From Allomeiothermus silvanus DSM 9946 (GTDB taxonomy: Bacteria > Deinococcota > Deinococci > Deinococcales > Thermaceae), in NCBI RefSeq assembly GCF_000092125.1, contig NC_014212.1, forward strand, positions 2,376,001 through 2,440,000: a DNA stretch of 64,000 nt, read 5' to 3'. The position numbers were made by a program, and so were the translations under genes. Below, in pieces: positions 7,285 through 56,820 of the stretch (within the stretch, counting starts at the first letter, position 1; each line of letters begins with the position of its first letter). A model generated the notes under the pieces. That model was not told the origin of the DNA. It saw only the letters and a program-made list of their open reading frames with translations, and searched no databases.

Positions 7285-8379
7285 GTGGTCACCCCTGCTC
7301 GAGAGAGAGATGCTTTCCTCGACGCCCTGCGGGGTTTTGCCCTATTCGGCATCCTGGTGGTGAATCTGGAAGCCTTCGCCGACCCCTTTTATTCGGTCTC
7401 GCATAGCGGCGAACCCCTGGACGACCTGGGCCGGGCGATCATCACCTTCTTCTGTAGCGGTAAGTTCTACACCATCTTTGCCACGCTGTTCGGATTGGGC
7501 TTGGCTTGGCAAGCTGCACGGCTGCGGGCTATGGGGCTAGACCCCCAACCGGTCCTGCGGCGAAGACTACGGTGGCTGCTGGGCGCCGGAGCCGTCCATG
7601 GCATCGTTCTCTTTAGCGGTGACATCCTGGGAACCTACGCGGTGTTAGGGCTTTTTGCCCTGCGCTACCTCGAGCGCCCCTACCTCTTACGAACCGCACT
7701 CGCCTACTATGCGTTCGGGGTAGCTTTGCTGGCCGGGCTGAGCTTCTGGTTCGGTGCCCGCGGACTCAGCCCGGATGCCGCCATCTACGCTAGCGGCAGC
7801 TTCGCTGAGGTGAGCCGGGTACGGCTATGGGACTGGCTGTGGAATACCGGCTGGAGCATCGTGCTGGGCTTCGAGATCGTGGGGTTGATGCTTTTTGGCT
7901 TTTACCTTTTCGAGCACTGGCAGCGGTTTTCGGCGGTGACCCTGCGCCGGGGTATCCTGCTGGGGCTTGTGCTGGGCATCCCGGTGAACGCTTACGACAT
8001 CTGGGCCGGGCCCCATTACCTCGAGCCCCTACGCGGCCTAGGCGGTTTGGCCTTCGCGGTGGTCTACGCCGGACTGATCCGGCTCTACTGGGATCGCCTG
8101 CGCTGGCTTCACCCCCTGCAATATGCCGGGCGGATGCCGCTCACCAACTATCTGTTGCAATCGCTGGTGATGAGCACGGTGTTCTACGGGTACGGACTGG
8201 GATTGTACGGACAGGTCAGTCCGCTTTTGTTCCCGCTCATCGCGGTGGGGTTCGTGGCCTTACAGGTGCTGTTGAGCCGGTGGTGGCTCGAGCGCTTCCA
8301 TCAGGGACCGCTGGAGCGGCTATGGCGGAAGTACACCTATGCCGGGCTGCAATCAAATGCGGAAGCTGGGTCAAGGTAA
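7285..8379 (+). CDS. DUF418 (YeiB-like) integral membrane protein
   Basis: A polytopic membrane protein of 364 residues with about nine or ten hydrophobic segments. It opens with the family signature LDALRGFALFGILVVNL and ends with the DUF418 block (LTNYLLQSLV ... WLERFHQGPLERLWRKYTY). These proteins are often predicted transporters or acyltransferase-like membrane proteins, and no substrate is established. The start is GTG at 7285 with a -10 six bases upstream. It is convergent with carA (27-bp gap). Confidence 0.88.
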   Translation: MVTPARERDAFLDALRGFALFGILVVNLEAFADPFYSVSHSGEPLDDLGRAIITFFCSGKFYTIFATLFGLGLAWQAARLRAMGLDPQPVLRRRLRWLLGAGAVHGIVLFSGDILGTYAVLGLFALRYLERPYLLRTALAYYAFGVALLAGLSFWFGARGLSPDAAIYASGSFAEVSRVRLWDWLWNTGWSIVLGFEIVGLMLFGFYLFEHWQRFSAVTLRRGILLGLVLGIPVNAYDIWAGPHYLEPLRGLGGLAFAVVYAGLIRLYWDRLRWLHPLQYAGRMPLTNYLLQSLVMSTVFYGYGLGLYGQVSPLLFPLIAVGFVALQVLLSRWWLERFHQGPLERLWRKYTYAGLQSNAEAGSR

Positions 8380-8406
8380 GTTCGCCAGGTCGGCCTCGTG
8401 AAGGGA

Positions 8407-9585
8407 TCAAACCCCCAGCTTATCGGCCTGCTGCTTCTCCACCGGCATCCCCGTTACCCCGTGAAAGCTTTCGACCTCTTCCAAGAATCGCCGAAATAAG
8501 TAGATCGAGTCGTGCGGGCCAGGGCTAGCCTCGGGGTGGTACTGCACGCTGAAGACCGGGTAGCGCACGTGGGCCATGCCCTCGAGGGTTCCGTCGTTGA
8601 GGTTGATGTGGGTGGGCTTGAACTCCTTGAGGGAATCGGGGTCCACCGCGTAGCCGTGGTTCTGGCTGGTGATCTCAACCTTGCCGGTGAGCAGGTTCTT
8701 GACCGGATGGTTGGCCCCCCGGTGGCCGAACTTCATCTTAAAGGTGCGCCCTCCCGCGGCCAGGGCCAGCATCTGGTGGCCCAAGCAGATGCCGAAGGTA
8801 GGCAAAAGGCCCATCAGCTTCCAGAGGGTGTCATGAGCGTAGCGGGGCATGGAGGGGTCGCCCGGGCCGTTAGAGACGAAGAGCCCCTGGGGCTCGAGGG
8901 CCATGATCTGCGCAGGAGTGGTCTTGCCCGGTACCACGATGGGTTCAAAGCCGAGTTCGGCCATGTACTTGACCTGGGAAAGCTTGATACCAAAGTCCAT
9001 CACCACGATGCGCCGCCCGGTCTTGAGGGTGGGGTAGGCGTAAGGTAGCGGGGTGGAGACCTCGGGGGTCATGTCGCGCCCGTCGATGTCAGTCCAGGAA
9101 CGAGCCTCAGCCTGAAGGGCCTTGAGGTCTGCCTCGTTGAAACGGTAGTCCTTACCGCCCAGCGCTGAGGCATGGGCGATCACCCCTTTGAGCACCCCGC
9201 CCTCGCGGATCTTGCGCACCAGAGCGCGGGTGTCGATACCTTCGAGCCCCGTCACCCCGTAGAACTCCATAAACTCAGCCAAGCTCTGCTGGGCTCTGGG
9301 GCCTGCCGCGTAGGGGCTGAACTCCCTGGCCACGAAGCCCCGTACCCAGGGGCGGTTCGATTCCATGTCGAAGACATTCACCCCGTAGTTGCCCTGGTGG
9401 GGATAGGTCATCACCACAATCTGCCCGTTGTAGCTGGGGTCGGTAAGGGTCTCCTGGTAACCGGTCTGGGCAGTGTTGAAAACCACCTCGCCCACGGTCT
9501 TGCCACGGCTGCCAAAGGCATAGCCGTGGTAGGTGGTGCCGTCTTCTAAGACCAAGACTGCGCGTTCCTTCATTCCAAATTCCAT
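8407..9585 (-). CDS. carA: Carbamoyl-phosphate synthase small subunit
   Basis: The glutamine amidotransferase subunit of carbamoyl-phosphate synthase, which feeds ammonia to CarB for pyrimidine and arginine synthesis. The N-terminal CPSase small-subunit domain ([19 protein letters not shown] ... NTAQTGYQE) is followed by a class I glutaminase with nucleophile Cys in FGICLGHQ (about 271) and the His/Glu pair in YHPEAS (about 354/356). Starts are possible at 9597 (TTG), 9585 (ATG) and 9573 (ATG, giving MKERAVLV); the last is closest to other family members. It lies 59 bp downstream of the HicB/nuclease gene on the same strand. carB is not in the window. Confidence 0.95.
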
Positions 9586-9635
9586 ACTATGCGACAAGTT
9601 TGTATTTCTATTCGTAAGCCAATACCGTATAGCTT

Positions 9636-9649
9636 CCTAACGGGTTAGG
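9636..9649. other. Perfect 14-bp inverted repeat at a stop codon
   Basis: Arms CCTAAC and GTTAGG flank a 2-base centre. The repeat overlaps the stop codon of the nuclease gene and lies 50 bp before carA. It is too short for a terminator; a protein site or chance are both possible. Confidence 0.3.
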
Positions 9650-10763
9650 TCAACAGTTTCTCTAGCTCTCCTTCCAGCGTCTTTTCGTTGACAAAGGTAA
9701 AGCCCCACTGGTTGTGCAGTTCGTCCAAGACGGCCTCGGGAATCCCTAACAACACGTACATCACCTGCTTGGCCGGGATGCGCAGGTCCTGGGCAATGCG
9801 CTGGTGGCGCTCGAGGGCTTCATCGTAGCCACCGGTCTTGCACTCCACCAACAAGAAGCGGTTTGGGGTGCGCACCAGAAGATCCACTTCGAAGCGATCC
9901 CCATTGGGATAGACGATGCTGGGGTTGGCTAACAGGTCGTGGGGAATATTACGCCGCCTCAGGGAAAGCTGAATGACCTGTTTGGCGTAGCGCTCAAGCC
10001 AACCTCCGGTGATGAACCCCTGCATCTTCCCTTCCACGCTGAGCCGCCCATAGATACGCCGCTGTTTGGAACTATAGGTATAGCTCTTGAGCAACCCCGC
10101 CTCTTTGAGCATGGTGCAGAGCTGGGTTACCGCGCCGATATCGTTCTGGCTAGCCGAGGCCAACGAGTATTGGAACTCACCACTGCCTTTGGCGGCGGTC
10201 GCCTTGATCTTCTCGTAAAACCCACTGACCGCGGCGAAGCGTTCGCCCATGAACCCGCTGATGCGCTCGAGAGCCTTTTCTTCAGCTTCGCTGCCCCCAT
10301 TGCGGCTGAGCTGGAGTTGTAGCCCAACCTCGTTGACATATTCGGAAACCCGGGTAGAGGGGCGCTTAGGCTCCTGACGGGGCGGCTGGGGCTGAGCAGG
10401 AGAGCGGTCTACCCCATCCGCACGCCCTCCCCGCCGCAGGGCACGCACCTCCTCGAGGATGCTCTTGACGGTCTTCAAGATGACCTGTTCGGTGGGGTTG
10501 GTGCTGGGGTGGGTGGTGAGGGCGAGTTCTTGCAAAGCGGCCCCGGCGGGACCCAGTTCGGGTACGGTCTGGTGCGAAAGCAAGCTTTTGGCTAGCCACA
10601 ACTCGAGTTCTTCGCTTAGCCGCTCGCGGCACTCCTCAAAGGAACGGCCCCGCACTAGCAGTCCGCTGATCTCGGGGACAGTAGCCTCGAGGTAGCCACC
10701 CTCGCCGGGGCGGTACTGGGCGGACTTGAGGGCCAAGGCCAGGTAATCGGTGAGTAAACCCAT
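9645..10763 (-). CDS. HicB-like domain fused to a Card1/Can2-like PD-(D/E)XK nuclease
   Basis: A 372-residue protein with three parts. Residues 7-60 (YLALALKS ... GGYLEATVPEISG ... SFEECRERLSEELELWL) have the HicB antitoxin-like fold signature. Residues 90-150 are a low-complexity linker rich in Pro, Gln and Arg. Residues 195-372 resemble the C-terminal half of Card1/Can2 (DUF1887): a winged-helix-like block, then GGWLERY (E257), FEVDLLV (D294) and LLVECKTGG (E307, K309), forming a PD-(D/E)XK centre. No CARF ring-nucleotide sensor is recognisable; the HicB-like domain occupies that position. No CRISPR or cas gene is nearby. A DNA- or RNA-cleaving role is inferred. Confidence 0.72.
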   Translation of the reverse strand: MGLLTDYLALALKSAQYRPGEGGYLEATVPEISGLLVRGRSFEECRERLSEELELWLAKSLLSHQTVPELGPAGAALQELALTTHPSTNPTEQVILKTVKSILEEVRALRRGGRADGVDRSPAQPQPPRQEPKRPSTRVSEYVNEVGLQLQLSRNGGSEAEEKALERISGFMGERFAAVSGFYEKIKATAAKGSGEFQYSLASASQNDIGAVTQLCTMLKEAGLLKSYTYSSKQRRIYGRLSVEGKMQGFITGGWLERYAKQVIQLSLRRRNIPHDLLANPSIVYPNGDRFEVDLLVRTPNRFLLVECKTGGYDEALERHQRIAQDLRIPAKQVMYVLLGIPEAVLDELHNQWGFTFVNEKTLEGELEKLLT

Positions 10764-10808
10764 GTCGTCTAAAGTTTACCCCTATAGCTCAAGCCAGATC
10801 CCACAAGG

Positions 10809-11351
10809 CTACGGACGAGCCCTCATGTAGGCGTGTTGCGGGTCGAGCACCTTGGTCACACCGATCTCGCGGCAGTTGTCGTAGAAGGGGCAACGGTTGC
10901 ATTCGCTCCAGACCTTGGGTGGCAGCTTCTCCCGGGTGGTGACGCTATAGCCGAGGGACTCAAAAAACCTAACCTGCAAAGTCCAGGCGAAGATCTGCGG
11001 CACCCCCAGGTCACGGGCCTCACGTTCAGCGGCCAAGGCCAGCCAGCGCCCCAGCCCCTGCCCCTGGCGGTCCGGGTGAACCGCCAGCCCCCGCACCTCA
11101 GCGATGTCGTGCCAGAGGAGGTGCAAAGCCCCAGAGCCGACGATGTAGCCGTCTTCGTCCTCCAATACGAAAAAGTCCCGCAGGTTCTCGTAGAGGTGGT
11201 CGTGGCTACGCACCAGCATCAGCCCGCGTTCAGCCCAATACTTTATGAGCGTATAAATTTGCTCCACGTCGCGCATCTTGGCCTTGCGCAACTCGGTATT
11301 GGCATCGAAGCGTACTTTGGGCAAAAAGGTGGTTCCTATCTCCAGGGTCAC
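10809..11351 (-). CDS. GNAT N-acetyltransferase, probably N-acetylglutamate synthase
   Basis: The start is chosen as GTG at 11349-11351 because GAGGAGGG precedes it by 8 bases; a longer frame to 11423 would overlap argH. The 180-residue product has a GNAT core (VRGLAVHPDRQGQGLGRWL, the acetyl-CoA loop) and a C-terminal cysteine-rich segment (SECNRCPFYDNCRE). It is the last gene of argG-GNAT-argH, and short GNAT-type N-acetylglutamate synthases are known next to argH in several phyla. It therefore probably acetylates glutamate in the first step of arginine synthesis. The Cys motif could bind a metal, which is inference. Confidence 0.8.
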   Translation of the reverse strand: MTLEIGTTFLPKVRFDANTELRKAKMRDVEQIYTLIKYWAERGLMLVRSHDHLYENLRDFFVLEDEDGYIVGSGALHLLWHDIAEVRGLAVHPDRQGQGLGRWLALAAEREARDLGVPQIFAWTLQVRFFESLGYSVTTREKLPPKVWSECNRCPFYDNCREIGVTKVLDPQHAYMRARP

Positions 11352-11391
11352 TGCTGCTTCCCTCCTCGTTGGGCGGACACGAGGTTCGCCC

Positions 11392-12786
11392 TTACCAACC
11401 GATTTCCTTTTTAGCGACTTCAATGGCTTCCCTGACCCGAAGGGGCGCAGTACCGCCCTGGGAATTTCGTCGGTGGATGGCGGTCTCGAGCCGGGTAAGT
11501 TCTAAGGCATCCGCCTCGAATAAAGCATGAAAACCCTGAAGGTCTTGCAGGGTTAGATCCCGCAACTCTTTCCCCCCTTCGATGCAGTAGCGCACGATTT
11601 GCCCCACTACATGGTGGGCTTCGCGGAAGGGCAGGCCTTTGTGCGCCAGGTAATCGGCCAGCTCGGTAGCGAGCGAGAAACCCGACTCAGCCGCCTTAGC
11701 CATCGGCTCCGGTCGCCATACCAACCCAGGCAACATCGCCGTCAAAAGCCTTAGCGAAGCGCGGTAGGTATCCACCGCATCGAAGAGGGGTTCCTTGTCC
11801 TCCTGAAAGTCCTTATTGTAGGCTAGCGGAAGCCCTTTCACCACCGTTGCCAGCCCCACGAAACTGCCCACTACCCGGCCCGCCTTGCCCCGGATCAGCT
11901 CGGCGATATCGGCGTTTTTCTTTTGTGGCATGATCGAAGACCCGGTACTGAAGGCATCCGGCAGCACCGCGAAGCCAAACTCAAAGGAGGTATAGAGGAT
12001 GATCTCCTCGGCCATACGCGAAAGCGTCAGCTGCCCGATGGCCAAAGCCGCCAAGGCCTCGAGCACGAAGTCCCGCGAGCCCACTGCATCCAACGAGTTC
12101 CGCATGGGCCTGGTGAAGCCGAGCTGCCGGGCGGTGAACTCGCGGTCGATAGGGAAACCCGTCCCGGCCAGGGCCGCCGCCCCCAAGGGGGACTCGTTCA
12201 GCCGCCTTTGGGCGTCTTGGATACGTCCAGCGTCGCGGGTGAGCATCTCGTAGTAAGCCAAAAACCAGTGCGATAGCAACACCGGCATGGCTCGCTGAAG
12301 ATGGGTATAGCCGGGCAGGATCAGGGGCGGGTCCACGTACTTTTCCGCCTGGCTGACCAGGACTTTTCGCAGGGCCTCGAGCTCCGCCAGCGTCCCCGTC
12401 AGCTCGCCGCGGAGCCATAACCTGAGGTCGGTAGCCACCTGGTCGTTGCGGCTCCTGGCGGTGTGAAGCTTCCCGCCCACGGGCCCCACCAACTCCGTCA
12501 GGCGGGTCTCCACGTTCATATGCACGTCCTCGAGTTCCTCTCGCCAGACGAACTTGCCACAGAGGATTTCCTCGCGCACCTGCATGAGCCCCTGGCGCAG
12601 GGTTTCGCCTTCCTCTGGGCTGATGATTCCCTGCTGGGCCAGCATCGCAGCGTGCGCTAAGGATCCTTCGATGTCCACCAGCGCCAATCTCTGATCGAAG
12701 CGCCAGGAGGCGTTGAACTCCTGAGCCAGCTGGTTGGGAGCTTCGGAAAAACGGCCTCCCCAGGTGCGTTGGGTCTCTTGACTCAC
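11392..12786 (-). CDS. argH: Argininosuccinate lyase
   Basis: A fumarase/aspartase-superfamily enzyme of 464 residues that cleaves argininosuccinate to arginine and fumarate. The opening [11 protein letters not shown] and the superfamily signature [12 protein letters not shown] are both present, as is the [10 protein letters not shown] segment with its conserved His-Thr-Ala-Arg-Ser-Arg context. Its ATG overlaps the stop of the GNAT gene upstream by 4 bases, indicating translational coupling in the arg operon. Confidence 0.97.
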
Positions 12787-13265
12787 AGGTGTACCTCGAG
12801 ATTTTTATGCAACACGAAAGGCGGCGGGGTGAGTGGGTTGGCCGCGCTGTACACCAGCCGCGGGTTTAGCGTGTAGCCGAGCGAGCTATACCACTCGACG
12901 AGGCGGTATTGGTCGTGCCGGACGGCCAGACGCAGTTCGTTCAGTCCGAGGGCCTGCGCCTTTTCTTCCAATACTCCTATCAGCTTTGGTCCCCAGCCTT
13001 GCTTGCGGTGTTCCGCGAGTACGCCCAGCTTCTTGATCTCCCCTACCCCCCGCTCGAACGGGTGGGGAACCAGGCGCACCGTGGCGATAATCTTCCCCTC
13101 CCGCTCGACCACCCAGCCGTAGCCTTTCTCGAGGTCGGCCCGCACCTTCTCTGCTGTCTCCTGGTGACCGCTCGAGTCGGGCGCAACCTTTCCGGCCCAG
13201 GCGGTACGGATCATCTGGGCGATGGCTGAGGCGTCCTCGAGTTGGGCTAAGCGAATGTGGGCCAC
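12783..13265 (-). CDS. GNAT-family N-acetyltransferase in the arg operon
   Basis: The start is chosen as GTG at 13263-13265 ([12 protein letters not shown]), with GGGAG 8 bases upstream, leaving a 22-bp gap after argG; the longer frame to 13313 would overlap argG. The product of about 160 residues has a GNAT fold with the acetyl-CoA loop [19 protein letters not shown]. It sits between argG and argH with a 4-base overlap to argH. A link to arginine metabolism is likely from context, but the acceptor is unknown. Two different GNAT genes in one arg operon suggests distinct roles. Confidence 0.78.
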
Positions 13266-13287
13266 CTGGTTATCTCCCGCCGGTCGC

Positions 13288-14481
13288 CTAATCCTTTGGC
13301 TGGGCCTTGGCACGCACCCTCAGCCGTAGGGAGTTCAGCTTAATGAAGCCATCGGCGTCGGCCTGGTTGTACCCCCCTTTCTCGTCAAAGCTGACCAGGC
13401 TTTTATCGTAGAGGCTGATGGGAGACTTGCGCCCGGCGACGATCACGTTGCCCTTGTAGAGCTTGAGCCGCGCGGTGCCGGTAACGGTCTTCGCCACGTG
13501 ATCAAAGTACGCCTGCAGGGCTTCCCGCTCGGGGGCAAACCAGAAGCCGTTGTAGACCAACTCGGCGTACTTGATGGCCAATTGGTCGCGCTGGTGCAGC
13601 ACCTCGCGGTCTAAGGTGAGGCTTTCCACCGCACGGCGGGCGTGATATAGCAGCGTCCCGCCGGGGGTTTCGTACACCCCCCTAGATTTCATGCCTACAA
13701 AGCGGTTTTCCACCAGGTCTACCCGGCCCACCGCATTACGGCCCCCGATCTCGTTGAGCCGGGTCAGCAAGGCCGCCGGGGAAAGGCGCTCCCCGTTGAC
13801 CGCCACCGGGTCACCCTCCACGAAATCTACTTCGACATACTCGTATTGGTCGGGAGCTTTTTCGGGATCAAGGGTGAGGCGGAACATCCCCGCCGGGGGT
13901 TCGTTCCAGGGGTCTTCCAGCACACCCCCCTCATAGGAGATGTGCAGCAGGTTGGCGTCCATGGAGTAGGGCTTCTCGATGGTCACGGGGATAGGGATCC
14001 CGTGCTGGGCAGCGTACGCGATCATCTCGCTGCGGCCCACGAAGCTCCACTCCCGCCAGGGGGCGATCACCTTGATGGAGGGCTCGAGGGCGTAGGCGGT
14101 GAGTTCGAAGCGCACCTGGTCGTTGCCCTTACCGGTAGCCCCGTGTGCGATGGCCTCGGCTCCCTCTTCCTGGGCGATGCGCACCAGGTGCTTGGCGATG
14201 AGGGGGCGGGCGATGGAGGTACCCAGCAGGTAGTAGCCTTCATACAAGGCTCCTGAGCGGAACATGGGAAAGACGAAGTCCGCTACAAACTCCTCACGCA
14301 AGTCTAGGGCATAGGCCTTGGAAGCCCCGGTTCTGAGGGCCTTGAGCCTGGCCTCCTCGACCTCCTCACCTTGCCCGATGTCAGCGGTAAAGCAGATTAC
14401 TTCAGCGTTGTAATTTTCGATCAACCATTTCAAGATGATGCTGGTATCCAGCCCGCCCGAGTATGCCAGTACGATCTTCAC
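13288..14481 (-). CDS. argG: Argininosuccinate synthase
   Basis: ATP-dependent ligation of citrulline and aspartate to argininosuccinate. At 397 residues it is the usual length for the short bacterial type. The ATP-pyrophosphatase P-loop AYSGGLDTS opens the protein, and [13 protein letters not shown] and NGFWFAPE are further family signatures. The start is GTG at 14479-14481 with GGAGG 8 bases upstream. It is the first gene of the arg operon, and its promoter lies 146 bp upstream behind a structured leader. Confidence 0.97.
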
Positions 14482-14620
14482 GCTCTTTCCTCCGTAGGGC
14501 TTCGCCCTATGCAGATTTTGGGCGGGGACTCTCCCCGCCCATTCCCTTATACGCTTCGGCCATCGTCCCCTTGCGCCCAGCGGCGCTTCTTATGGTGGTG
14601 GGGTCGTCGCCTTAACATGC
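14482..14620 (-). promoter_or_regulatory. Structured 5' leader of argG
   Basis: Between the promoter and the argG start the transcript contains two strong hairpins. One has 10-bp perfect arms at 14519-14528 and 14532-14541 (GC-rich, 3-base loop). The second, with arms TAGGGC and GCCCTA at 14495-14500 and 14504-14509, ends immediately before the ribosome-binding site. No T-tract follows the large hairpin on the minus strand. This could be an attenuator, a stability element or a site that limits ribosome access. Confidence 0.45.
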
Positions 14621-14636
14621 TGCATAAGTATACGCA
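14621..14636. promoter_or_regulatory. Candidate arginine-repressor operator
   Basis: An imperfect palindrome, TGCGTATACTTATGCA on the minus strand, covers the -10 of the argG promoter. It resembles ARG boxes (an AT-rich core flanked by TGC/GCA), and the position would block polymerase. ArgR is known in Thermus; binding here is inferred. Confidence 0.45.
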
Positions 14637-14655
14637 CACTCGGGCAGGGGGTCAA
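14627..14655 (-). promoter_or_regulatory. argG operon promoter
   Basis: On the minus strand, TTGACC (14650-14655), a 17-base spacer and TATACT (14627-14632) form a near-consensus housekeeping promoter. The start of transcription would be near 14620. Confidence 0.75.
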
Positions 14656-14662
14656 GGGGCAT

Positions 14663-14668
14663 TAGGCT
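14663..14668 (+). promoter_or_regulatory. Possible leaderless -10 of plsY (TAGGCT)
   Basis: TAGGCT lies 6 bases before the plsY ATG at 14675. An AGGAG in the same gap could instead be a ribosome-binding site. Confidence 0.3.
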
Positions 14669-14755
14669 AGGAGCATGGGTCTACTGTACGCTGCGCTGGC
14701 CGGTTACTTTTTCGGGAGCCTGCCCTTTGCTTACTGGTTTGGGATTTTGCAACAT

Positions 14756-15847
14756 TAGGAGTTACGCAGTTGCAGTTGACTGGACATTCTTCTGTGTGCT
14801 AGGAGGAGAGTGCTTAGCCAAGCTTCTCCAAAGGGGGTGATGCCCATGAACCCACCGAAGTGCGATGACCTGGACTACATCCACTTTCTCATCGCCGCTC
14901 AGCGGGTCTTCACCTGTACCGAGGCCGCTCGCTGTAGTCCAAAGGAGAAGAGCCCTCCCGCCCATGATGCCTTTACCCGCCTGCTGCAAAGACAGCCGCC
15001 CGACACGGCGGCGCTGTGGCAGGAGGCCAAGGCCTTCGTGAAGCTCAGGGAGGGGCTGCTGATCCTGGACGACACCACCCTGGATAAGCCCTACGCTCGG
15101 GACATGGATCTGGTGAGTTACCACTGGAGCGGCAAACACCAAAGGGTGGTTAGGGGCATCGCCCTCATGACCCTGCTGTGGACGGAGGGGCAGGCCCTGA
15201 TCCCCTGCGACTTTCGGGTCTACGACAAGCCCCAGGATGGGAAGAGCAAAAACGACCACTTTCAGACCATGCTCCAGAAAGCGAAGGAGCGGGGGTTTCA
15301 GCCGGAATATGTCCTGATGGACAGCTGGTATGCCAGCTTGGAGAACCTCAAGGCCATAGTCAGCTTTGGCTGGCGGTTTCTGACGCGGCTGAAGGGCAAC
15401 CGCCTGGTCAACCCGGAGGGGAAGGGAAATGTACCCATCCGTGAGGTGGAAATCCCTGGGGAGGGGAGGGTGGTTCATCTTCGGGGTTTTGGGTTCGTGA
15501 GGGTGTTCCGAACGCTCTCCAAGGACGGGGAGGCGGAGTACTGGGCCACGAACCATCTGGGGATGAGCGAAGAGAAGCGGGCGGAGTTAGAGCGGCAAGG
15601 ATGGGGGATCGAAGTGTACCATCGGGGGCTCAAGCAGTGCTGTGGGGTGGAGCGGGCCCAGGTGAGGAAGGCGGTCTCCATCCTGCGGCACCTCCTCCTG
15701 GCTTTGCGGGCCTTCCTCCGGCTGGAGGTCTACCGGCTGCGCAGGGGGGTGAGCTGGTACGAGGCCAAGGCGTCCATTGTTCGCGAGGCAATACGAAGTT
15801 ATCTCGCCCATCCCCTCCACATCCTTCAGCCAACTGCGTAAGTCCTA
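14756..15847 (+). mobile_element. IS701-family insertion sequence in plsY
   Basis: The 1092-bp element has 17-bp terminal inverted repeats, TAGGA(G/C)TTACGCAGTTG, with one mismatch between ends (14756-14772 and 15831-15847). A 5-bp target duplication, aacat, is at 14751-14755 and 15848-15852. It holds one transposase gene, and both ends and the duplication are intact, so the insertion looks young. The family assignment rests on transposase resemblance from memory. Confidence 0.9.
14846..15841 (+). CDS. IS701-type DDE transposase
   Basis: About 331 residues from ATG 14846 (MNPPKCDDLDYIHFLIAAQ), chosen because GGGGGTG precedes it at good spacing; starts at 14810 (GTG) or 14840 are possible. 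The DDE core shows Asp in LLILDDTTLDKPYA, Asp in YVLMDSWYASLENL, and Glu in the helix WGIEVYHRGLKQCCGVE. The TAA stop lies inside the right terminal repeat. It appears intact and is probably active. Confidence 0.88.
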   Translation: MNPPKCDDLDYIHFLIAAQRVFTCTEAARCSPKEKSPPAHDAFTRLLQRQPPDTAALWQEAKAFVKLREGLLILDDTTLDKPYARDMDLVSYHWSGKHQRVVRGIALMTLLWTEGQALIPCDFRVYDKPQDGKSKNDHFQTMLQKAKERGFQPEYVLMDSWYASLENLKAIVSFGWRFLTRLKGNRLVNPEGKGNVPIREVEIPGEGRVVHLRGFGFVRVFRTLSKDGEAEYWATNHLGMSEEKRAELERQGWGIEVYHRGLKQCCGVERAQVRKAVSILRHLLLALRAFLRLEVYRLRRGVSWYEAKASIVREAIRSYLAHPLHILQPTA

Positions 15848-16356
15848 AACATAAAAACCTGCTCGAGGACGGCTCAGGTAACGTCGGGACCACCAACGCC
15901 TGGCGGGTGCTGGGGCCAGTCCCCGGCACAATGGTGCTCGTATTAGACGTAAGCAAGGGCATCCTAGCCGTGGCGTTGGGAGAGTTTCTGGCCAAAGATG
16001 CCACCGGAGGGCTACTGGCCGGGGCACTTGCGGTGTGGGGGCACTGCTACTCGATATGGCTGCTGGGCAAAGGCGGAAAGGGCATCGCCACCGCCGTAGG
16101 GGTACTATTTGCCGTTCAGCCGGTGATGCTGCTCATCGCCCTGGCAGCTTTCGCCGGGCTTACGCTCTTGAGCCGAAGCCGCTACCGTGCGGCTACTCTG
16201 GTTGCTCTGGCCTTACCGCTGGTGTGTGTGGCCGTTGTGCCCGTGGCTACTTATTTGTGGTTCGGCTTCGGGGTAGGGATCCCGGTAGCCATCAAGAACC
16301 TGCCGGACTGGAACCGAGCTTAGCGCGCCGCGTAGCCTCTTGGCTTTTCACCTTAC

Positions 16357-56501: not shown

Positions 56502-56820
56502 ATACCGGATTCAAAAAGACAGTTTACAAAACCCAAAACTCCAGAGGCTGTCTTTTTGAATCCAGAGCACACCCCTCCCTTGAGCACCGGCGCTAGCCGG
56601 GGGCCGATGGCCCTTCACTTGAGTACCGGCGCTAGCCGGGGGCCGATGGCCCTTCACTGACGGTCGGCGAAGAAAGCGTATCCCTTCCAAGGGGCGGTAT
56701 CGCCCACCCCTCGCTTCGCTCGGCGAAACTACGCCACCGCTACGCGGATAACTTCGGTCGGCCGCCCCGCCTTGGCGGGGCGGAGTTACCGTTCGGTAAC
56801 GAATCAACCGAATCTGGTAT
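56502..56820. repeat. MITE-like palindrome island
   Basis: A 319-bp non-coding block is bounded by inverted ends ATACCGGATTC (56502-56512) and GAATCTGGTAT (56810-56820), one mismatch in 11. Inside are a perfect 16-bp inverted repeat (56507-56522 with 56548-56563), two tandem 39-bp units (56580-56618 and 56619-56657), a 10-bp perfect GC stem (56762-56771 with 56774-56783), and a 7-bp stem GTTACCG/CGGTAAC (56785-56800). The right end falls on the hslO stop codon. No clear target duplication is seen and no protein is encoded. Confidence 0.6.
56580..56657 (+). repeat. Two tandem 39-bp repeats
   Basis: Units at 56580-56618 and 56619-56657 differ by a single C/T change. Each contains two small stems (CCGGC/GCCGG and GGGCC/GGCCC). 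They lie inside the MITE-like block and are too few and uninterrupted to be a CRISPR array. Confidence 0.85.

Follow-up and report, generated by a model that had tools for sequence, protein, structure and literature searches.

The 64,000-nucleotide stretch of Allomeiothermus silvanus DSM 9946 DNA that we analyzed (hereafter, the window) contains a gene in which a HicB-type antitoxin-like domain is joined to the winged-helix-like domain and the PD-(D/E)XK nuclease core of Card1 and Can2, with no CARF domain. The gene lies in an arginine operon, between a GNAT acetyltransferase gene and carA. This slot is common to the fusion gene and to stand-alone hicB-hicA pairs, and it is the strongest clue to the gene's function. 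We see about an even chance that the protein is a CARF-independent nuclease of the Card1/Can2 type, with a HicB domain that sets its oligomeric state and control, and that it is a toxin-antitoxin or defense-type derivative of, or alternative to, HicBA.

A HicB-type domain joined to a Card1/Can2-type nuclease

The gene is a genuine open reading frame of 372 codons that runs on the minus strand from 10763 to 9645. Its parts are as follows.

9645 to 10763, minus strand: whole gene, a fusion of HicB domain, winged helix, and PD-(D/E)XK nuclease, 372 amino acids (open reading frame, full-length conservation, dN/dS)
10560 to 10763, minus strand: UPF0150/HicB-type antitoxin-like domain, residues 1-68 (Pfam, phmmer, Foldseek)
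10350 to 10559, minus strand: helical segment (helices 72-84 and 90-111) and disordered linker (113-126), residues 69-138 (AlphaFold2 with the 73-sequence alignment)
10041 to 10349, minus strand: winged-helix-like middle domain, residues 139-241, of the kind that follows CARF and precedes the nuclease in Card1-type proteins (pLDDT, PADLOC, Foldseek)
9651 to 10031, minus strand: Card1/Can2-type PD-(D/E)XK nuclease domain, residues 245-371 (Foldseek and profile matches)
9993 to 9995, minus strand: codon of E257, in the GGWLE257RY helix (invariant, 73/73)
9882 to 9890, minus strand: codons of E292-V-D294, equivalent to SthCan2 E276/D278 (invariant, 73/73)
9837 to 9845, minus strand: codons of E307-C-K309, equivalent to TsuCan2/Card1 E302/K304 (invariant, 73/73)

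Full-length orthologues are found at 94% identity in a congener, at 67-81% in Meiothermus- or Calidithermus-type genomes, and at about 35% in Thermus. Relative to the congener, the gene is under strong purifying selection (dN = 0.033 and dS = 0.57, for a dN/dS of about 0.06), and every part of it is under purifying selection (for the HicB part, dN = 0.013 and dS = 0.57). Only some of the Meiothermus genomes have the fusion (7 of 18), and a match was found in every one of the 27 Thermus genomes. The Thermus orthologues are not at the arginine operon; where examined, they have a conserved context before a murJ-like gene. Their HicB domain has drifted away from the HicB consensus.

A first-pass annotation, made from the sequence alone, had described the N-terminus as HicB-like, and Pfam, the PDB sequence search, and the fold search agree. 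Pfam's UPF0150 matches residues 6-68 (E = 2.5e-10, 40.6 bits relative to a cut-off of 27.3), and phmmer against the PDB matches residues 1-73 to TTHA0281 (5.8e-5). Foldseek matches the N-terminus to TTHA0281 (2dsy; rmsd 1.5-1.6 Å, TMt 0.82-0.86) and to E. coli HicB3 (6u0i) and HicAB (6hpb), with a probability of 1.00 over 55-59 columns. Both the Pfam and the fold matches indicate the partial RNase H-like fold of HicB/UPF0150 antitoxins, which spans residues 1-62 of the AlphaFold2 model. (This model was built from a 73-sequence alignment and has a mean pLDDT of 90.2; it supersedes a poor model from the single sequence, with a pLDDT of 51.) The absence of a CARF domain also stands, as a Pfam search of the protein up to an E value of 10 gave no match to any CARF family. 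The annotation's disordered linker is there (residues 113-126), but the middle of the protein holds more than a linker: residues 139-241 form a conserved winged-helix-like domain that is also present in CARF-bearing Card1 proteins. This domain is modeled mostly with pLDDT above 90 and belongs to a Foldseek match to VC1899 that runs across 251 columns. Similarly, the CARF_PDDEXK profiles of PADLOC match residues 137-315 (3.5e-10), solely over the part of the profiles that follows CARF.

The C-terminus had been proposed to be a Card1/Can2-like nuclease, and a lack of structural similarity to Card1 would have spoken against this. We looked for such a lack and found the reverse: the best 19 Foldseek matches in the PDB are all Card1, Can2, Cdn1, or VC1899 (VC1899 at 1.1e-11 and Cdn1 at 9.6e-10). 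A profile of the family (73 sequences) also matches these proteins in the PDB (Can2 at 1.5e-7, Card1 at 8.2e-7, Cdn1 at 1.1e-5, and VC1899 at 6.4e-4). With the single sequence, the matches of the C-terminus to Card1 and Can2 by phmmer are weak, and Pfam's Card1_endonuc (PF09002), at 249-318, is under its curated cut-off (E = 0.002, 18.1 bits relative to 26.4). None of 111 Deinococcota genomes contains a Card1/Can2 protein over the Pfam cut-off. We also considered NERD (PF08378) as the family, but its match at 259-311 is weak (20.6 bits, under the cut-off of 22.1) and the fold search favors Card1/Can2.

The protein has the GGW(L/F)E, ExD, and ExK motifs of the PD-(D/E)XK core of Card1/Can2, as F250-ITGGWLERY-259, FE292VD294LLV, and LLVE307CK309TGG. 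The four residues that had been singled out from the sequence (E257, D294, E307, and K309) are invariant, along with E292, G253, and W255, in 41/41 sequences of the order and in 73/73 sequences across many phyla, so the loss of these residues among orthologues, which would have undermined the annotation, was sought and not seen. Y230 is also identical in 73/73 aligned sequences. This invariance, together with the fold match, rules out a chance likeness of the motifs. According to PMC7969007, SthCan2 is inactive with E276A/D278A, and in TsuCan2 the nuclease was inactivated by E302A/K304A. Because the catalytic residues of the fusion are invariant in 73/73 sequences and match the pairs of residues in Can2 that were mutated for inactivation, the fusion protein is likely to be active as a nuclease.

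A slot in the arginine operon and its link to hicA

In the window, the fusion gene (X) belongs to the codirectional run argG-GNAT-argH-GNAT-X-carA and is flanked by gaps of 45 and 47 bp. Its neighbors are:

8407 to 9597, minus strand: carA (carbamoyl-phosphate synthase small subunit), next downstream after a 47 bp gap (open reading frame; syntenic in relatives)
10809 to 11423, minus strand: GNAT-family acetyltransferase (argA-like), next upstream after a 45 bp gap (open reading frame; the syntenic marker for the slot)
11392 to 14481, minus strand: the rest of the run on the upstream side, with gene overlaps, namely argH (12786-11392), GNAT (13313-12783), and argG (14481-13288) (open reading frames; order kept in relatives)

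The sole promoter-like match on the minus strand of this run, a consensus match only, is upstream of argG (14655-14627), and no RNA families were found within 8000-15000. Farther upstream of the run is a transposase-like open reading frame (14810-15841, plus strand); by eye, the plsY-like sequence past it (within 14810-16323) seems to be without its N-terminus, as if cut by an insertion. Elsewhere in the window, a 39-nucleotide GC-rich unit is present in two tandem copies that are 92% identical (56572-56649).

A survey of gene neighborhoods in the Thermaceae, which the first-pass annotation had suggested, proved to be informative. The fusion gene directly follows GNAT in the window genome and in 8 others (Allomeiothermus, Meiothermus, and Calidithermus), and it follows an insertion in G021. 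In 9 Thermus-type genomes, the same slot contains hicB-hicA, as overlapping or abutting genes. The slot is damaged or has hicB only in G010, G012, and G043, and nothing lies between GNAT and carA in another 16 Thermus genomes, 10 Meiothermus genomes, and G052. One slot can thus be taken by either stand-alone hicBA or the fusion. (In the assemblies of T. parvatiensis and Thermus sp. JCM 17653, the apparent frameshifts at L089, L129, L163, and L164 do not seem to be programmed or to reflect gene decay; sequencing errors are likelier because argG, argH, or carA is split there as well.)

Furthermore, in Thermaceae MAG015 (G019), the hicB in the arginine slot is decayed (two stops), the fusion gene lies outside of the slot, and an intact hicA ends 11 bp ahead of the start of this fusion. 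The hicA gene scores 31.3 bits against Pfam's cut-off of 27 and retains the histidine, in 'GKRHQ'. So, judging by gene adjacency, the fusion can pair with hicA. This pair was seen in one MAG only; hicA is never beside the fusion in the arginine slot, and the window locus does not have the neighboring hicA that is expected of a HicB antitoxin. Nor did we find an orphan hicA in the host genome (G000) that could be the partner: since both hicA genes have their own adjacent hicB, no free HicA is visible.

Relatives that lack CARF and their type III CRISPR links

In a scan of 84,980 species, relatives of the nuclease were found in Cyanobacteriota, Chloroflexota, Pseudomonadota, Bacteroidota, Bacillota, Spirochaetota, Planctomycetota, and other phyla. 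Ahead of the winged-helix-like domain, most of them have about 54-90 residues, which typically form a coiled coil (for example, 'LLERIAVALERI') and are too few for a CARF domain. Helix 90-111 of the fusion probably corresponds to these coiled-coil N-termini. In a quick tree of the nuclease, the HicB-bearing proteins of Thermaceae and close kin fall on one side of a branch with support of 90, so the simplest reading is a single fusion, in which HicB would have been added to a CARF-less nuclease in Thermaceae and close kin. The annotation had HicB and the linker taking the place of CARF. The HicB N-terminus is there, but we reject a swap in one step, as CARF-less relatives are present in many phyla and HicB joined that branch. 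In a tree of HicB domains, this lineage clusters with stand-alone HicBs (support of 92/91), which is weak evidence given 65 residues and long branches; a later swap of the HicB domain is conceivable.

The relatives also vary in other ways. Two Chloroflexi proteins (L086:7629-8849 and L081:7443-8711) have a TIR-like N-terminal domain on the same nuclease core (in L086, TIR_2 matches with E = 0.039, below the cut-off). By eye, the cyanobacterial relatives L068, L096, L106, L110, and L126 have transmembrane-like starts, and L068, L098, and L106 have C-terminal extensions of about 180 amino acids without a clear Pfam match. Some Meiothermus genomes (L031-L034) contain a paralogue of about 317 amino acids that has neither CARF nor HicB. 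One scan of viral contigs gave no relatives.

Four CARF-less relatives lie within type III CRISPR loci. Two from Thermoflexus (L105:5219-10403 and L111:5033-10426) adjoin cas10 and cas6, and one from Anaerolineales (L127:1-3220) adjoins cas10; all three have a separate NE0113-type CARF gene nearby, and each is possibly a split effector, with CARF and nuclease in two proteins. The fourth, from Hydrogenothermaceae (L113:1799-8924), adjoins cas10, cmr3, a RAMP gene, cmr5, and cas6. By a search with type III seed proteins, the loci of the other distant relatives have no type III neighbors, and apart from these four loci, no convincing recurring neighbors, including defense genes, were found beyond close kin. 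The seed proteins also had no match in the window; this is a limited test, and it agrees with the first-pass annotation that there are no cas genes there.

Possible functions and comparison with known systems

We propose that the C-terminal PD-(D/E)XK domain is a metal-dependent nuclease. It would be a dimer that nicks or cuts DNA and/or RNA, and the winged-helix-like domain would aid nucleic acid binding. Because there is no CARF domain, activation by cyclic oligoadenylate in the manner of Card1 should be impossible. Instead, the HicB-type domain, on its flexible linker, most likely sets the oligomeric state and switches the protein on or off through protein contact. That is, protein-based control or fixed oligomerization would replace control by CARF, while the winged-helix-like and nuclease parts would act as in Can2. 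Since the gene stands where other arginine operons have hicB-hicA, and since hicA is directly upstream in one relative, we infer that the fusion may derive from the HicBA module or substitute for it, and hence may be a toxin-antitoxin or defense-type nuclease. A more specific version, which we consider doubtful, is a toxin-antitoxin-style module in which HicB rather than CARF gates a Card1-type nuclease and the trigger is HicA (from the host itself, a plasmid, or a phage) or its loss. If so, a nuclease known from CRISPR effectors would now respond to a protein as its trigger. The lack of an orphan hicA in the host, the lack of hicA beside any fusion in the arginine slot, and the lack of recurring defense neighbors for most CARF-less relatives all count against a role in defense or as a toxin-antitoxin system.

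Given its universality in Thermus, the main rival is that the protein is a housekeeping nuclease for constitutive DNA processing in the Thermaceae (repair, recombination, or competence), with a HicB-like domain that merely dimerizes and with accidental HicB ancestry and location. We think that this is somewhat unlikely, yet it deserves serious consideration. A match in every one of the 27 Thermus genomes, with one conserved context before a murJ-like gene where examined, suggests housekeeping more than mobile defense. The strong purifying selection, the drift of the Thermus HicB domain, the lack of nearby defense or cas genes, and the lack of viral relatives in one scan fit as well. However, the patchy distribution in Meiothermus, the sharing of the slot with a toxin-antitoxin pair, the hicA attached in one relative, and the relatives within type III loci are harder to explain if the protein is a housekeeping nuclease.

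It is improbable that the protein is, apart from its unusual C-terminus, a classical HicB antitoxin, which would neutralize HicA and repress its own operon via the winged helix and use the nuclease fold only to bind DNA. C-terminal DNA-binding domains are frequent in HicB antitoxins (PMC10865869), and the hicA-fusion pair in MAG015 and the clustering of this short HicB domain with stand-alone HicBs would fit, but complete invariance of the catalytic residues is unexpected for a mere DNA-binding fold, and the host has no hicA beside the gene and no orphan hicA elsewhere. It is even harder to credit an accessory role, in trans, for the host's type III CRISPR system, for example with a separate CARF protein, as may be the case for the relatives in Chloroflexota and Aquificota. 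The host does have a csm1/cas10 gene, but it is about 1.7 Mb from the fusion, and the fusion is also present in genomes with no csm1 match over the cut-off, among them G002, G004, G006, G015, G019, and G021 (by a search that covered csm1 only).

Card1 and Can2 are known as CRISPR effectors that are activated by cyclic oligoadenylate. That a conserved CARF-less branch can carry HicB, membrane segments, or a TIR-like domain hints at a general effector nuclease that has been placed under varied sensors, and the Thermaceae fusion, which shares its slot with hicBA, is a concrete case that can be tested. Proteins from thermophiles are usually easy to purify. New here are the location of the fusion in the GNAT/carA slot, where Thermus has hicB-hicA or nothing, and the intact hicA directly upstream of the fusion in one MAG. 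A fusion of HicB to Card1 did not come up in the literature that we searched, which did not extend to key subscription papers, and a search for HicB with CARF gave nothing related. CARF-less nucleases of the Card1 type are not named in that literature either; the 2020 classification of CARF proteins was outside its scope and may mention them.

The systems that most resemble the fusion are Card1/Can2 (DUF1887, PF09002; VC1899 1XMX, SthCan2 7BDV, TsuCard1 6WXW, and TbrCan2 8Q3Z), which have a winged-helix-like domain and then a PD-(D/E)XK nuclease, with the GGW(L/F)E, (E)xD, and ExK motifs in the same order. Known Card1/Can2 proteins are dimers in which binding of cA4 to CARF releases the nuclease (PMC7969007). 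In contrast, the fusion has a HicB-type N-terminus instead of a cyclic-oligoadenylate-binding CARF domain, scores under the Pfam cut-off, and is encoded in an arginine operon rather than in a type III CRISPR locus. The second-best fold match, Cdn1 (CARF-domain dual-activated nuclease, 9U49/8Z4I), has the same nuclease core, but it carries CARF and responds to cyclic oligoadenylate. NERD resembles the fusion only by its weak match. On the N-terminal side, the fusion resembles UPF0150/HicB antitoxins (TTHA0281, 2DSY; HicBA classes 1-2 of PMC10865869), which occupy the same slot in Thermus, but a stand-alone HicB has about 85 amino acids and is paired with hicA, while the fusion joins HicB to a nuclease; as far as the available text of PMC10865869 goes, this architecture is absent from its 14 HicA classes. 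For the C-terminal 230 residues, the nearest relatives are CARF-less Card1-type nucleases from other phyla (for example, L078, L083, L092, and L066), which have the same catalytic residues but start with short coiled-coil, transmembrane-like, or other N-termini, not HicB. PADLOC assigns these proteins to CARF_PDDEXK despite their lack of CARF, which is a warning that profiles for annotating defense systems call CARF-less proteins CARF effectors.
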